From positions 1-42,994 of the forward strand of contig CAJWGB010000017.1 in assembly GCA_913031625.1 (NCBI GenBank): DNA of 42,994 nt, in the 5' to 3' direction. A model generated the notes under the pieces. That model saw only the letters and a program-made list of their open reading frames with translations. It was not told the DNA's origin and searched no databases. This DNA is from an uncultured Planctomycetaceae bacterium (GTDB taxonomy: Bacteria > Planctomycetota > Planctomycetia > Planctomycetales > Planctomycetaceae). Positions 18,947 through 23,784 of this stretch are shown here, in pieces. The first letter of the stretch is position 1; the number at the start of each line of letters is the position of its first letter. A program made the position numbers and the translations under genes.

Positions 18947-20695
18947 TTACTTCACTCGTCGCAGAAGCAGGAGTCGAAAGTCCATCACACTGTCCCGCGC
19001 GATCCCTGTCGCCTTAAGCGTCAGTGTTCCCTTCCCCGCTTCTAGCTTGATCTCTCCGAGTGTCATACGGCCCCAATTCTGCTCGTACGACTCGACTCGC
19101 TTAAACCTATCCTCTGCCGCTCCTACGATTTCAGAGGGATGTGCTTTACTGATCTGACCACTGAGACGACTGCCGTTGAAGCTCAGTTCAATTGTGGAAC
19201 CTTGCTGCCCTTCCGGGCACGAATAGAAGATCTCTGCCTCGTATTGTCCGGAAGTTAACACTGTGGCGTCCCATGTGATGCTGTCGTCCGTGGACGTCCA
19301 GTTTCCAAAGTACGAACTATTCGGGAATCTATTCGACCGTTTAATGTTGCCGTGAGTGATGGCATCACGAGCTGGCAGCTGCGTCAGTGGCGTGTCGGGG
19401 TGGGCGATTACGAATGGTCGTTGATCATCGTCGTAGCCCGGCAACACTGTCTGCCGGAATTCGTCGGTCGCGGCCTTGAGTCGAGCTGTCACCTTCGGAT
19501 ACCGCCTGGCGATGTTGGTTCGCTGCCCGGGATCTTTCGTCAGATCAAAGAGCGATCCACTGTTGTCGAAACGATACGGTCCAGACTTTGCGCTCACCCT
19601 GTTCCGCCAGTGGGAGATGATGATTCGGTCATCTGGAGTGTCATCCTGACCGGCGATCACCCGGGACAAATCTGTGCCGTCAAACGGCTTCTCATTGACT
19701 GTGTTGATGCCCGCCATCGCGGCCAGCGTCGGATGTAGATCAATGGCGGCCCCGTTTCGCGTTACGGTGTGGCCTGCTTTGATCCTTGACGGCCAGCGAA
19801 TGTGACACGGAGAGCGGACACCCCCTTCGTCTGTTGATCCCTTGCGACCCTTCATGTCACCATTCCAGCGGGAACCATTGGGCCCGTTATCGCAGAAGTA
19901 AACCACTATGGTGTTGTCTGCCTTTCCCGTTTCCTCCAGGGTCTCCAGAAGTCGCCCGACGTTGTAATCAATGTTTTCGCACATCGCCAAAGCGGCCCGG
20001 ATGTGCTGCAGGTTCTCCTTCTTCTGATCCCGATTGTGTCGCTTCAGGTCGAAGTCCTTGAACTTATTCCACCAGCGATCCGGCACCTGCATCGGAGAGT
20101 GGGGAGTGTTGTACGGCAGATAAATGAAGAACGGATCCTCTGATTCTGCCTTAATGTAGTCGATCGCGTGATCCGTCAGATCATCGATGATGAATCCTTT
20201 ACCGGTCACCATGTCATTATTGTGATCCAGCAGAGGGCTCCAGTAGTGTCCCCAATGCCCCGAACAGAAGCCGTAGTATTCCTCAAACCCCCGCGCGTTG
20301 GGATGATATGGAAACTGCATACCGTTGTGCCATTTCCCAAACGCTGCGGTGCGGTAACCCGCCTCCTGGAAGGATTGTCCGATCGTCACCTCGTCAAGAT
20401 CGAGCCGCTCTCCACCCGCTGACGTGCTGTAAACTCCGCCACGCGGGTGATAACGCCCTGTCAAAAACTCGGCCCGTGTTGGCGAACAGACCGGACACAC
20501 ATAGAACCGTTCGAATGAAACTCCCTCACGGGCGATGCGATCGACGTTTGGTGTCTCCAGATTAGTGTTTCCATTGAATGACAGATCCCCCCAGCCCTGA
20601 TCGTCTGTGAGGATCACCAATACGTTCGGCCGCTCAGCGACGACTGCTGGAATCAGACATGACAGGGACAGGAACACTAATGAAATACGAGACAT
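18947..20695 (-). CDS. Secreted sulfatase (formylglycine type)
   Basis: About 582 residues from an ATG at 20695, which follows GGAA by 7 nt and gives a clean signal peptide (MSRISLVFLSLSCLIPAVVA). The frame could extend to 20731, but those 12 residues spoil the signal. The sulfatase domain spans about 20-450: RPNVLVILTDDQGWGDL with the metal-binding Asp pair, the CSPTR motif whose Cys (residue 70) is oxidised to formylglycine, LTGRYHPR, FGKWHNG, and FCDNGP with the second metal ligands. It hydrolyses a sulfate ester, and in planctomycetes the substrate is typically an algal sulfated polysaccharide. The last ~130 residues, after DAITHGNIKRSNRFPNSSYF, form a separate beta-rich module (TWDATVLTSGQYEAEIFYSC ... 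GTLTLKATG) likely to be carbohydrate-facing. The maturation enzyme is not in this window. Confidence 0.93.
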   Translation of the reverse strand: MSRISLVFLSLSCLIPAVVAERPNVLVILTDDQGWGDLSFNGNTNLETPNVDRIAREGVSFERFYVCPVCSPTRAEFLTGRYHPRGGVYSTSAGGERLDLDEVTIGQSFQEAGYRTAAFGKWHNGMQFPYHPNARGFEEYYGFCSGHWGHYWSPLLDHNNDMVTGKGFIIDDLTDHAIDYIKAESEDPFFIYLPYNTPHSPMQVPDRWWNKFKDFDLKRHNRDQKKENLQHIRAALAMCENIDYNVGRLLETLEETGKADNTIVVYFCDNGPNGSRWNGDMKGRKGSTDEGGVRSPCHIRWPSRIKAGHTVTRNGAAIDLHPTLAAMAGINTVNEKPFDGTDLSRVIAGQDDTPDDRIIISHWRNRVSAKSGPYRFDNSGSLFDLTKDPGQRTNIARRYPKVTARLKAATDEFRQTVLPGYDDDQRPFVIAHPDTPLTQLPARDAITHGNIKRSNRFPNSSYFGNWTSTDDSITWDATVLTSGQYEAEIFYSCPEGQQGSTIELSFNGSRLSGQISKAHPSEIVGAAEDRFKRVESYEQNWGRMTLGEIKLEAGKGTLTLKATGIARDSVMDFRLLLLRRVK

Positions 20696-20799
20696 AGAGA
20701 ATTCCATTACTACCGCTTTGTGCGCGTTCAATTTAAGTTTGCTGGTCTGCCGGAAGGGAAGCCCGAAGTATGAGCGACGGATCTGCTCGGGCTGCCAGC

Positions 20800-22362
20800 C
20801 TAAGCGTTCTCGTGCTTTCTGACCACCAGTAACACGGGCGCTGTCGGTTTGTCTGGCTGACTGTTGAAGCGTTCCAGATCATAGTTCTCTGGAAGCCCGG
20901 ACAACAGGTTGTGAACCGCGTTGAACTCTTCCGGCCCGCCGTCGTGTCCCCGATAGCACAGCACCGTCAGTACTCCGCCCGGCCTGAGTACAGCGATTGC
21001 ACCTTCGAGAGCCGGTATCGTCGTGCTGGCTCGCGTGATCACGGACTTATCCGCGCGAGGCAAATATCCCAAATTGAACATCACAGCCGCGACACCAGAT
21101 TCTGCCTCTCGCGTCAGTGTCTCATGACCCTGCTTAATCAACCTGACGTTCTCCAGACCCTTTGCCTCCAGCCGTTTTCTCGTGGAGTCGATCGCCTGCT
21201 GTTGGAGATCAAACCCCAGAACTCGGCCGCTCGTTCCGACTGACTCCGCAAGGAAACACGTATCGAATCCGTTTCCTACCGTGGCATCGATCACAAAGTC
21301 TCCTGTCCTCAGCGCTTTACCCACGATCTGCTGAGCTCGTTGAGTCAACGGACGCTGTCGCTCCGGTGGCCGAATGCGAGACACACAGCGTTCCCTTGAT
21401 ATCTCTTCCTGCCCTCTCATCCGTGCCGTCAGCTCGGCTGCTGCACGAGGTGCCCGAAGGCTGCCTTTCGAGCCGAGCCCGTTGAGTATCCACACACTGG
21501 CATGCTCGGGATGCCTTCCCAACACTGGCAGGTAGTCCTTCATCGTCGGCCGGATGGCTGCTCGATGATCGATCAGACTCACTTCAGCGTCGACCAGATC
21601 TGCCAGCCGATGTGCGATCTCCTGTCGACCTGTTTCAGTGGGCTGATTCTCAAGGTACTCCCAATCGTATGTGCTCCCCACTCGTTGCTGATCACCGTCC
21701 GGGGCAATCCAAATTCCCGCATGCACTACTCTGGTCTGTGAATAGCCGTCGATGCTGACGTCCAAAATGTCTCCTCGGGACGGATTGTTCGGCACATCGG
21801 GAAACAAGGCTGTCTTTGCTGCACCAGTTGCCAGAATCAGGACGTCCGCTGTCGCTGCCAGTCCCGGAAACTTCAACGGCTGGTCGATCGAAAATCGGCT
21901 AAGATCGATTCGCTGACAGCAATATTGCCCTCTGTCAGTGAACCAGTTTCGAGTGGCCTCCAGATAGGTTCCTACGTCTAACCGTGCGGCTGGCTCCATA
22001 CAGACAGCATCAAAGGGTCGCTCCTGCCCAGTCAGCTTGATGGATTTCCGCGGAAACTCCTGTGATTCCGGCACTCGGAGACGATACATCGGCTCTTCAG
22101 AGAAGAAGGATCTTCCAGTGACCTGCTCCACCCTCCGATAGAACTCCACTGCCGCCTGCCAGTCCTGCGCATAATCCGGCGCCTGTGCCATCCGCTTGCC
22201 CGTATAGGGTGTGATAAGACCAGCCGAGACTCGAGAGGCTGTCGCCGGCTGCTCATCGTCGACAATGACAAGTGACTGTCCCTGCCAGTGCATCTGCCAT
22301 GCGATAGCCGACCCGGCGAGTCCCTGTCCAACGATCAGATTCTGTACGTGAGTCTCCGGCAC
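20800..22362 (-). CDS. Fused FAD-dependent oxidoreductase and MnmM/YtqB-type methyltransferase, probable tRNA mnm5U synthesis enzyme
   Basis: 520 residues in one uninterrupted frame from a GTG at 22362. Residues 1-~320 are a DAO-type FAD oxidoreductase: GQGLAG (12-17), AGLITPYTGKRM, AIRPTMKDYLPVLG (269-282) and LGSKGSLRAPRAAAELTARM (296-315), the last two resembling the C-terminal oxidase half of MnmC. Residues ~330-520 are a SAM methyltransferase of the rRNA_methylase/YtqB family: VIDATVGNGFDTCFLAE (357-373), VMFNLGYLPRADKSVITRAS (427-446), LCYRGHDGGPEEFNAV (468-483). Known: E. coli MnmC joins a methyltransferase and an oxidoreductase to turn cmnm5U into mnm5U at the tRNA wobble base, and B. 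subtilis YtqB is MnmM, the methyltransferase for that second step. Inference: this fusion does both steps with a non-MnmC methyltransferase at the opposite end. Confidence 0.85.
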   Translation of the reverse strand: MPETHVQNLIVGQGLAGSAIAWQMHWQGQSLVIVDDEQPATASRVSAGLITPYTGKRMAQAPDYAQDWQAAVEFYRRVEQVTGRSFFSEEPMYRLRVPESQEFPRKSIKLTGQERPFDAVCMEPAARLDVGTYLEATRNWFTDRGQYCCQRIDLSRFSIDQPLKFPGLAATADVLILATGAAKTALFPDVPNNPSRGDILDVSIDGYSQTRVVHAGIWIAPDGDQQRVGSTYDWEYLENQPTETGRQEIAHRLADLVDAEVSLIDHRAAIRPTMKDYLPVLGRHPEHASVWILNGLGSKGSLRAPRAAAELTARMRGQEEISRERCVSRIRPPERQRPLTQRAQQIVGKALRTGDFVIDATVGNGFDTCFLAESVGTSGRVLGFDLQQQAIDSTRKRLEAKGLENVRLIKQGHETLTREAESGVAAVMFNLGYLPRADKSVITRASTTIPALEGAIAVLRPGGVLTVLCYRGHDGGPEEFNAVHNLLSGLPENYDLERFNSQPDKPTAPVLLVVRKHENA

Positions 22363-22476
22363 GGCTTGCTATCATTATGTGGCGACGGATACGGCCTATA
22401 CGGCCGCTTGCTTAGTGGTTGGGTCAATCGTATCCTCGCAGCTTCCTTACTTCCTCGCGATCATCGGAGTCATCCC

Positions 22477-23784
22477 ATGACCAGTCAATCAAGACGCTCG
22501 TTTCTTCAAACCTCGGCCGCGGGTATCGCTGCCGGGATGTATGCCACGCATACTGAAGCCGCTCCCTCCAAAAACCCCCTGGAAAAGCTCAACATCGGCT
22601 GTATTGGTACAGCAAACCGCGCAGCGGCTGATGTCGATGGAGTCATCTCAGAAAACCTGGTTGCGATCTGCGACGTAGACTCCCGATATCTGGAACTGGG
22701 TAAGAAGAAGCTTACCGACCGCAAGGGACTGGAACCTCGCACTTATGTCGACTATCGCGAAATGCTCGACAAGGAAGGCGACAAGATCGACGCAGTGACT
22801 GTCGCGACCACCGACCACCATCACGCTCCAGCGAGCATTCGAGCTATTCGAGCCGGCAAGCATGTCTACTGCGAAAAGCCGCTGACCCACACTGTTCAGG
22901 AAGCTCGCATTATCGCGGAAGCCGCCGCCGAAAAGGGTGTTGCTACTCAGCTGGGTACTCAGATCCACGCGGGAGAAAATTACCGGCGGGTAGTCGAGAT
23001 CATCCAGAGTGGTGCTATCGGCGACGTCACCGACGTTCACGTCTGGGTCGGCAAAGCATGGGGAATTACCAAGCAGACAGGTGAAGAATCTGCTCCACCA
23101 GACACCCTGAACTGGGACATCTGGCTGGGCGCTGCTCCTGAACGCCCTTATGTCGCTGGTCGATACCACCCAGCCCAATGGCGACGCTACTGGGACTTTG
23201 GAGCGGGCACCCTCGGCGACATGGGCTGTCACTACATGGACCTGCCGTTCTGGGCTCTGAAACTTCGTCACCCGATCTTCTGCGAAGCGGAAGGCGCCGA
23301 AGTGCATCCAGACATGGCTCCGACCGGACTGACGGTTCGCTACAAGTTCCCGGCTCGCGGCGACATGGTGGCCTGTAACCTGACATGGCACGATGGTGAC
23401 CGAATTCCTCGCGAAGTGGCGGGCGAACGAGTACCGGCAAACGGCGTCATGTTTATTGGTACCGAAGGAAAGATGTTTGCGGATTACGGCCGCTACCGAC
23501 TGTTCCCGTCAGACAGGTTTTCTGACTTCGAACCACCGGAAAAGTCGATTCCCAAATCAATCGGTCACCATCAGGAATGGATCAAGGCCTGCAAAGACGG
23601 GTCTCCCACCACCTGTAACTTTGATTACTCTGGTGCTTTGACGGAATCCGTGCTTCTCGGCACCGTCGCCTATCGAACAGGCAAGCCACTGGAGTGGGAT
23701 GCAAAGAACCTGACCGCAGCCAACAACAAAGCTGCTGATGCTCTGATCAGCAAAGAATATCGAGCAGGCTGGGAAGTTGAGTAA
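22477..23784 (+). CDS. Tat-exported Gfo/Idh/MocA-family oxidoreductase
   Basis: 435 residues from the ATG at 22477, chosen because GGAG lies 7 nt before it and it begins with a twin-arginine signal (SRRSFLQTSAAG, RR at 6-7); the frame extends upstream but without signal or sense. The mature protein has an N-terminal Rossmann fold (LNIGCIGTANRAAADV, 38-53; ICDVDSRY) and the family motif CEKPLTHT with EKP at 133-135, followed by the C-terminal alpha/beta substrate domain (GDMGCHYMDLPFWALKL). Family knowledge: NAD(P)-dependent oxidation, reduction or lyase chemistry on sugars. Secreted members are numerous in Planctomycetota and their substrates are largely unknown. It is divergent from the fused oxidoreductase-methyltransferase gene across a 114-bp spacer, and ends at a strong terminator. 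Confidence 0.92.
   Translation: MTSQSRRSFLQTSAAGIAAGMYATHTEAAPSKNPLEKLNIGCIGTANRAAADVDGVISENLVAICDVDSRYLELGKKKLTDRKGLEPRTYVDYREMLDKEGDKIDAVTVATTDHHHAPASIRAIRAGKHVYCEKPLTHTVQEARIIAEAAAEKGVATQLGTQIHAGENYRRVVEIIQSGAIGDVTDVHVWVGKAWGITKQTGEESAPPDTLNWDIWLGAAPERPYVAGRYHPAQWRRYWDFGAGTLGDMGCHYMDLPFWALKLRHPIFCEAEGAEVHPDMAPTGLTVRYKFPARGDMVACNLTWHDGDRIPREVAGERVPANGVMFIGTEGKMFADYGRYRLFPSDRFSDFEPPEKSIPKSIGHHQEWIKACKDGSPTTCNFDYSGALTESVLLGTVAYRTGKPLEWDAKNLTAANNKAADALISKEYRAGWEVE

Follow-up and report, generated by a model that had tools for sequence, protein, structure and literature searches.

The window analysed here, a stretch of 42,994 nucleotides from an uncultured Planctomycetaceae bacterium, carries a gene that joins an N-terminal FAD oxidase to a C-terminal MnmM methyltransferase in one frame (Table 1). 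The encoded protein is very probably a convergent, order-swapped counterpart of MnmC, with a predicted chemistry leading from cmnm5U via nm5U to mnm5U at the wobble uridine of tRNA. Among the genomes compared, the two-protein system is found as adjacent genes, as unlinked genes or as a fusion; the substrate of the fusion, the order of its reactions and its product are what we infer. We also lean towards the broader view that the oxidase represents a third cmnm5U oxidase lineage besides MnmC(o) and MnmL, one that was repeatedly joined to MnmM. The bifunctional MnmC design would then have arisen at least twice, with non-homologous methylases and in opposite domain order, and fused, adjacent and unlinked arrangements would interconvert within one family.

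Table 1. Features of the oxidase-MnmM fusion gene, with positions in the window and residues of the encoded protein.
Feature	Position	Strand	Basis
Fusion gene, FAD oxidase + MnmM methyltransferase	20800..22362	-	single 520 aa frame, GTG start
DAO-type FAD oxidase domain, residues 9-313	21424..22338	-	Pfam DAO PF01266, E 1.6e-23; tree grouping
Dinucleotide-binding motif GQGLAG, residues 12-17	22312..22329	-	alignment
R271, aligned with ecMnmC Arg567, proposed cmnm5U carboxylate binder	21550..21552	-	alignment; presumed equivalence with Arg302
NGLGSKGSLRAP loop, residues 294-305, MnmC(o)-type GS[KR]G..AP	21448..21483	-	alignment
Interdomain linker, residues 314-339	21346..21423	-	stretch between both domain matches
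MnmM (YtqB) methyltransferase domain, residues 340-516	20815..21345	-	NCBIfam NF053511
GNGFDT, holds D367 = bsMnmM D34	21259..21276	-	alignment
NLGYLP, holds N430 = N101 (proposed base) and Y433 = Y104 of bsMnmM	21058..21075	-	alignment
YRGH, holds Y470 = Y141 and H473 = H144 of bsMnmM	20944..20955	-	alignment

On the minus strand of the window, an in-frame stop codon lies upstream of the GTG start of the fusion. A sequence-only reading of this DNA had described a single 520-residue frame that combines a DAO oxidoreductase with a C-terminal YtqB-family methyltransferase, and the profile searches confirmed this description: besides the DAO match (PF01266), the C-terminal half was recognised by Pfam PF06962 (YtqB family; residues 381-514, E 3.3e-39), and the fusion reached 184.3 bits with the NCBIfam MnmM model NF053511, over its cut-off of 135. 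The motifs quoted in that reading are present in the fusion as well. The oxidase half reached neither the cut-off of the MnmC oxidase model (MnmC1, TIGR03197; 67.9 versus 174.2 bits), for which E. coli MnmC(o) served as positive control with 522.7 bits, nor that of the ThiO model (TIGR02352; 73.1 versus 250.8 bits). PF05430, the MnmC(m) domain, was absent from the fusion protein in the Pfam scan; the oxidase is N-terminal and MnmM C-terminal. The earlier suggestion of a convergent enzyme with swapped domain order is supported. Compared with solved structures, the methylase half had six YtqB-like matches (8h0s and 8h1a among them), and glycine oxidases were nearest to the oxidase half. With a profile made from paired oxidases, the MnmC structures 3awi, 3ps9 and 3pvc were reached as well, at scores under those of the glycine oxidases.

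Downstream of the fusion, a sulfatase frame (PF00884; window 18947-20731, minus strand) starts after 68 bases on the same strand. A GFO/IDH/MocA oxidoreductase that weakly matches a Tat signal (window 22288-23784, plus strand) is divergent from the fusion; its first listed start overlaps the start of the fusion, and its likely start is near position 22477.

Mutants of K11, D34, N101, Y104, K110, Y141 and H144 in bsMnmM were reported to be nearly inactive, and a decrease in activity of about three-fold was given for Y104F (PMC9976899). Residue equivalences were derived by alignment to 8h0s, with a numbering that fits this publication, and place the seven residues at Q344, D367, N430, Y433, K439, Y470 and H473 of the fusion. 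Six of the seven are identical, and the position of K11 is occupied by Q344. Among the 102 MnmM sequences of the family, N101 is found in all, D34 and Y141 in 101 each (with one gap each) and H144 in 100, and the position of Y104 holds tyrosine in 97 and phenylalanine in 5. At the position of K110, lysine is found in 51, histidine in 43 and arginine in 5 sequences; at the position of K11, lysine occurs once and histidine or glutamine 100 times. The variation at K11 and K110 counts against a tRNA contact that is fully identical to that of bsMnmM.

The genome to which the window belongs comprises 6.7 Mb in 444 contigs, is 96% complete and has one PF06962 match, which is the fusion. The sequence-only reading had proposed to look in this genome for mnmE and mnmG and for the absence of a canonical mnmC, and the search agreed with its expectations. 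MnmG was found with 828.5 bits, and a full-length MnmE-like protein, for which MnmE models were the best matches, scored 231.6 bits, under the cut-off of 252.6. In profile searches of the same genome, the MnmC methylase domain PF05430 was not found, TIGR03197 had no match over its cut-off, and TIGR01212 (YtqA/MnmL family) gave four weak matches, none of them over the cut-off. MnmE and MnmG were seen in the proteome of another planctomycete, Tuwongella immobilis (PMC8567305), which backs the use of this pathway by planctomycetes. The window's genome additionally encodes a separate ThiO (the DAO protein L002), which at 274.6 bits exceeds the cut-off of 250.8, so that the fusion is not needed for thiamine synthesis.

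The occurrence of the two halves was surveyed in 170 related genomes of one GTDB family, the same as that of the window. At E 1e-20, MnmM gave 102 matches in 101 of these genomes, each exceeding the NF053511 cut-off, and a search at E 1e-30 with a profile built from 11 paired oxidases detected the oxidase in 103 genomes. All 101 genomes with MnmM contained the oxidase, as did two of the 69 others, and neither gene was found in 67; the Fisher p of 1.2e-45 for this co-occurrence overstates independence because the genomes are related. The linkage of all 102 MnmM genes, including that of the window, was judged from fetched flanks: 54 genes in 53 genomes are fused behind the oxidase, 38 are adjacent to it (on the same strand and within the fetched flank) and 10 have the oxidase elsewhere in the genome. 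Fused or adjacent genes thereby account for 92 of the 102, and 53 of the 101 MnmM-bearing family genomes carry the fusion. The sequence-only reading had anticipated that stand-alone DAO and MnmM proteins would be paired elsewhere, and the 38 adjacent pairs and the presence of the oxidase in every MnmM genome of the family bear this out. With 54 fused copies spread over 53 genomes (that of the window among them), a chance fusion or a slip of assembly was rejected.

In 30 of the 38 adjacent pairs the genes are separated by -13 to +14 bases (-4 in 14 pairs, -13 in 8), as in translationally coupled genes. The other pairs comprise six larger overlaps, probably resulting from an over-long start choice, and two gaps of 72 and 215 bases. 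The MnmC methylase domain PF05430 was detected in none of the 170 family genomes at E 1e-5, with a positive E. coli control, and TIGR01212 in none of them at E 1e-30, with positive controls from E. coli and B. subtilis. In at least two genera (g3 and g6), some members have both genes and a member has neither, as seen among the negatives listed, which are a part of all negatives. Five fusions from named records (L051-L055) are not extra cases, because they are the same sequences as the family-genome copies L091, L118, L107, L116 and L062, respectively; three of the five matching genomes are of the window's genus.

Several loci of the survey come from incomplete sequences. The two oxidases without a detected MnmM are found in drafts, L198 in G311 (79% complete) and L201 at a contig end in G427. 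The MnmM of G404 starts near a contig end, and its classification as unlinked may hide a split fusion. At L077 in the draft G367, one TAG interrupts the MnmM frame beside the oxidase. Genome G407 contains two different copies of the fusion, L138 and L146.

Judged from its sequence, the oxidase half is not the oxidase of MnmC but falls into a third group, separate from both MnmC(o) and ThiO. Mean identities of the family oxidases to the MnmC(o) rows and to the ThiO rows were 16-20%, that is, about equally distant, and as the oxidase also lies under every curated cut-off, its substrate cannot be read from the sequence. The TIGR03197 cut-off was reached by none of the nine family oxidases scanned. 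This model had matches in 14 of 14 control genomes and exceeded its cut-off in only two, so that similarity to DAO proteins alone has little meaning.

The residues shared with MnmC are of different informative value. R271, which is aligned with Arg567 of ecMnmC, is kept by every sequence compared (103/103 family oxidases, 5/5 MnmC, 4/4 ThiO) and is not diagnostic because ThiO has it too. Arg302 of glycine oxidase, which would occupy the same position, holds active-site ligands by their carboxyl group (PMC4741190), and Arg567 of ecMnmC is given under FAD binding (PMC3648344). Gly518, Arg567, Gly578, Gly619 and Arg653 of the MnmC FAD domain were described as more than 98% conserved (PMC3648344). 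Among the 103 family oxidases, Gly518 and Arg567 are kept in all, Gly619 in 99 and Gly578 in 83, and Arg653 is not conserved; the first four positions are not diagnostic either, because all four are kept in 4 of 4 ThiO sequences. In the alignment, GSKGSLRAP of the fusion has its counterpart in MnmC(o), where E. coli reads GSRGLCSAP, whereas the ThiO rows do not match it. Within the NGLGSKGSLRAP loop, the serine is present in 95 of 103 family oxidases, and lysine or arginine likewise in 95 of 103. The corresponding loop of MnmC has serine or threonine followed by arginine (5/5), and ThiO has arginine at the position of the serine (4/4). The sequence-only reading had called the oxidase MnmC-oxidase-like, which holds for the loop and the presumed reaction but not for the cut-off of the MnmC oxidase family.

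All trees were quick trees with SH-aLRT values alone as support. Duplicate rows (L062, L091, L107, L116 and L118) and two short rows (L070 and L201, the latter with fewer than 300 residues) were dropped from the oxidase trees, and the 103 family oxidase rows include those of a Cycloclasticus genome and of G311. In the first oxidase tree, which contained three very long-branched DAO proteins of the window's genome, Cycloclasticus was placed outside the family group. After removal of these three proteins and addition of unlinked oxidases, the second tree (112 rows) had all 103 family rows, i.e. fused, paired, unlinked and Cycloclasticus, on one side of a branch with an SH-aLRT of 99; the split that excludes Cycloclasticus from the family had an SH-aLRT of 75. 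MnmC(o) (5 rows) and ThiO (4 rows) formed one group each, ThiO with an SH-aLRT of 87 in the second and 98 in the first tree. As the oxidase tree is unrooted among the three groups, it provides evidence neither for nor against a sister relation. In the MnmM tree, neither the family nor the family together with Cycloclasticus occupied one side of a branch, and long branches meet, so that we make no claim on the direction of transfer. The label fused or split changes at least eight times on the oxidase tree, with five changes forced by starred branches (eight and three in the first tree), and seven times on the MnmM tree, with three forced. These quick trees suggest that fusion and fission, or repeated fusion, occurred several times.

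The common GS[KR]G..AP loop might also indicate that the oxidase truly belongs to the MnmC oxidase family and has exchanged its partner methylase, an explanation that we consider possible but unlikely. The positions of G518, R567 and G619 are kept in agreement with it (all three in ThiO too), and a Neisseria MnmC(o) without PF05430, with an MnmM-like stretch at a distance of about 3 kb, indicates that such swaps may occur. However, none of the nine scanned family oxidases reached the TIGR03197 cut-off, and MnmC(o) forms a separate starred group in the unrooted tree, in which the family is on one side of a branch with an SH-aLRT of 99. Alternatively, the methylase half could act as MnmM while the substrate of the oxidase is a small molecule or a different wobble intermediate, for example in proofreading or salvage that provides MnmM with nm5U by a different chemistry. 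This is conceivable because none of the oxidase proteins scanned exceeded a curated cut-off and sequence does not reveal the substrate, and MnmEG was reported to form nm5U directly with ammonium (PMC9976899), so that MnmM could work without a cmnm5U oxidase. We nevertheless regard it as quite improbable: the arginine in 103 of 103 oxidases and the MnmC-like loop point to an N-substituted glycine, and since neither PF05430 nor TIGR01212 was found in the family at the thresholds used, the oxidative step would be left without a known route. A thiamine-pathway glycine oxidase (ThiO) joined to MnmM by happenstance is hardly credible and this assignment was rejected, because, although TIGR02352 outscores the other oxidase models with the fusion and with several of the paired oxidases, the score is far under the cut-off, another ThiO over the cut-off is present in the window's genome, the ThiO rows group apart in both oxidase trees, the loop has a serine where ThiO has arginine, and the oxidase strictly co-occurs with MnmM.

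Outside the family, a phylum sample of 294 genomes contained 19 over the MnmM cut-off, five of them outside the window's family (L021, L022, L027, L036 and L039). No oxidase was found within the 1.5 kb flanks of these five MnmM genes, and a lone MnmM is also present at three loci from named records (L057-L059). The 720-residue frame at L039 was considered as a fusion and rejected; it has no oxidase match before MnmM and resembles a high-GC read-through. A metagenome-assembled genome of the gammaproteobacterium Cycloclasticus (L056) contains oxidase and MnmM as overlapping neighbours, with 201.8 bits for MnmM; in this genome, which was searched with TIGR03197 only, no MnmC oxidase exceeded the cut-off (best score 92.6 versus 174.2 bits). 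In Neisseria gonorrhoeae NZ_CP119142.1, an MnmC1 oxidase (L152:5551-7167; 417.5 versus 174.2 bits) has no PF05430 match, and an MnmM-like stretch with a stop codon inside (L152:1985-2509) lies about 3 kb away on the same strand. This is possibly a further change of partners between oxidase and methylase.

As a convergent counterpart of MnmC, the fusion would act on cmnm5(s2)U34 supplied by MnmE and MnmG, the side chain of which is an N-substituted glycine. R271 of the N-terminal FAD domain would hold the carboxylate while the glycine C-N bond is oxidised, and hydrolysis of the imine would yield nm5(s2)U34 and glyoxylate. The C-terminal MnmM domain would then methylate the amine with SAM to form mnm5(s2)U34, and N430, Y433, Y470 and H473 would, by homology, take the roles that they have in bsMnmM. 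For MnmC1, oxidative cleavage of the carboxymethyl group of cmnm5U via an imine and the fold of glycine oxidase were described; a distance of about 45 Å separates the two sites of MnmC, with the tRNA thought to be released between the steps (PMC3648344). The frequent split and unlinked arrangements agree with two independent steps.

In Gram-positive bacteria, MnmL, which we take to be YtqA and thus the TIGR01212 family, is not known to be an FAD enzyme, and YtqA is a radical-SAM protein. The sequence-only reading had assumed an FAD enzyme as the oxidative partner in Gram-positives; this has to be revised, as a 2025 review names MnmL for the oxidative step in B. subtilis (PMC12548931). According to the 2023 MnmM paper, the MnmC(o)-like enzyme of organisms with MnmM was unknown, and a fused oxidase-methylase or an operon was expected among the Gram-positive candidates and not found (PMC9976899). 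The fusion described here is an oxidase-methylase of the kind expected there. In the literature searched, outside of which most subscription papers lie, we recognised no description of an oxidase-MnmM fusion or of one in planctomycetes. The abstract of Jaroch et al. 2024 is said to mention fusion proteins and alternate arrangements. The fusion would work like MnmC without membership in the MnmC family, and the priority for this is uncertain. Because the partners occur naturally in fused, adjacent and unlinked form, the assignment of the oxidase can be tested directly in an E. coli mnmC deletion mutant. With this assignment, a DAO group to which none of the curated models tried assigns a function would gain a role, and the fusion would be an example of a bifunctional tRNA enzyme that evolved convergently.

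Like E. coli-type MnmC, the fusion combines a glycine-oxidase-like FAD domain and a SAM-dependent methylase in one polypeptide, with the same two presumed reactions. In contrast to MnmC, its methylase is MnmM and not PF05430, the order is oxidase-methylase instead of methylase-oxidase, and its oxidase stays under the MnmC1 cut-off and falls into another group. With MnmM (YtqB; 8h0s, 8h1a) it shares the family, over the cut-off, and the equivalents of D34, N101, Y104, K110, Y141 and H144, whereas its MnmM copy sits behind an FAD oxidase and has glutamine at the position of K11. As in the MnmL-MnmM route of Bacillota, MnmM would methylate the product of an oxidative step assigned to another protein, but an FAD oxidase replaces the TIGR01212 protein. 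The DAO family, the conserved arginine and a glycine chemistry are common to the fusion and ThiO glycine oxidase, from which the oxidase half differs in its group and in its loop.
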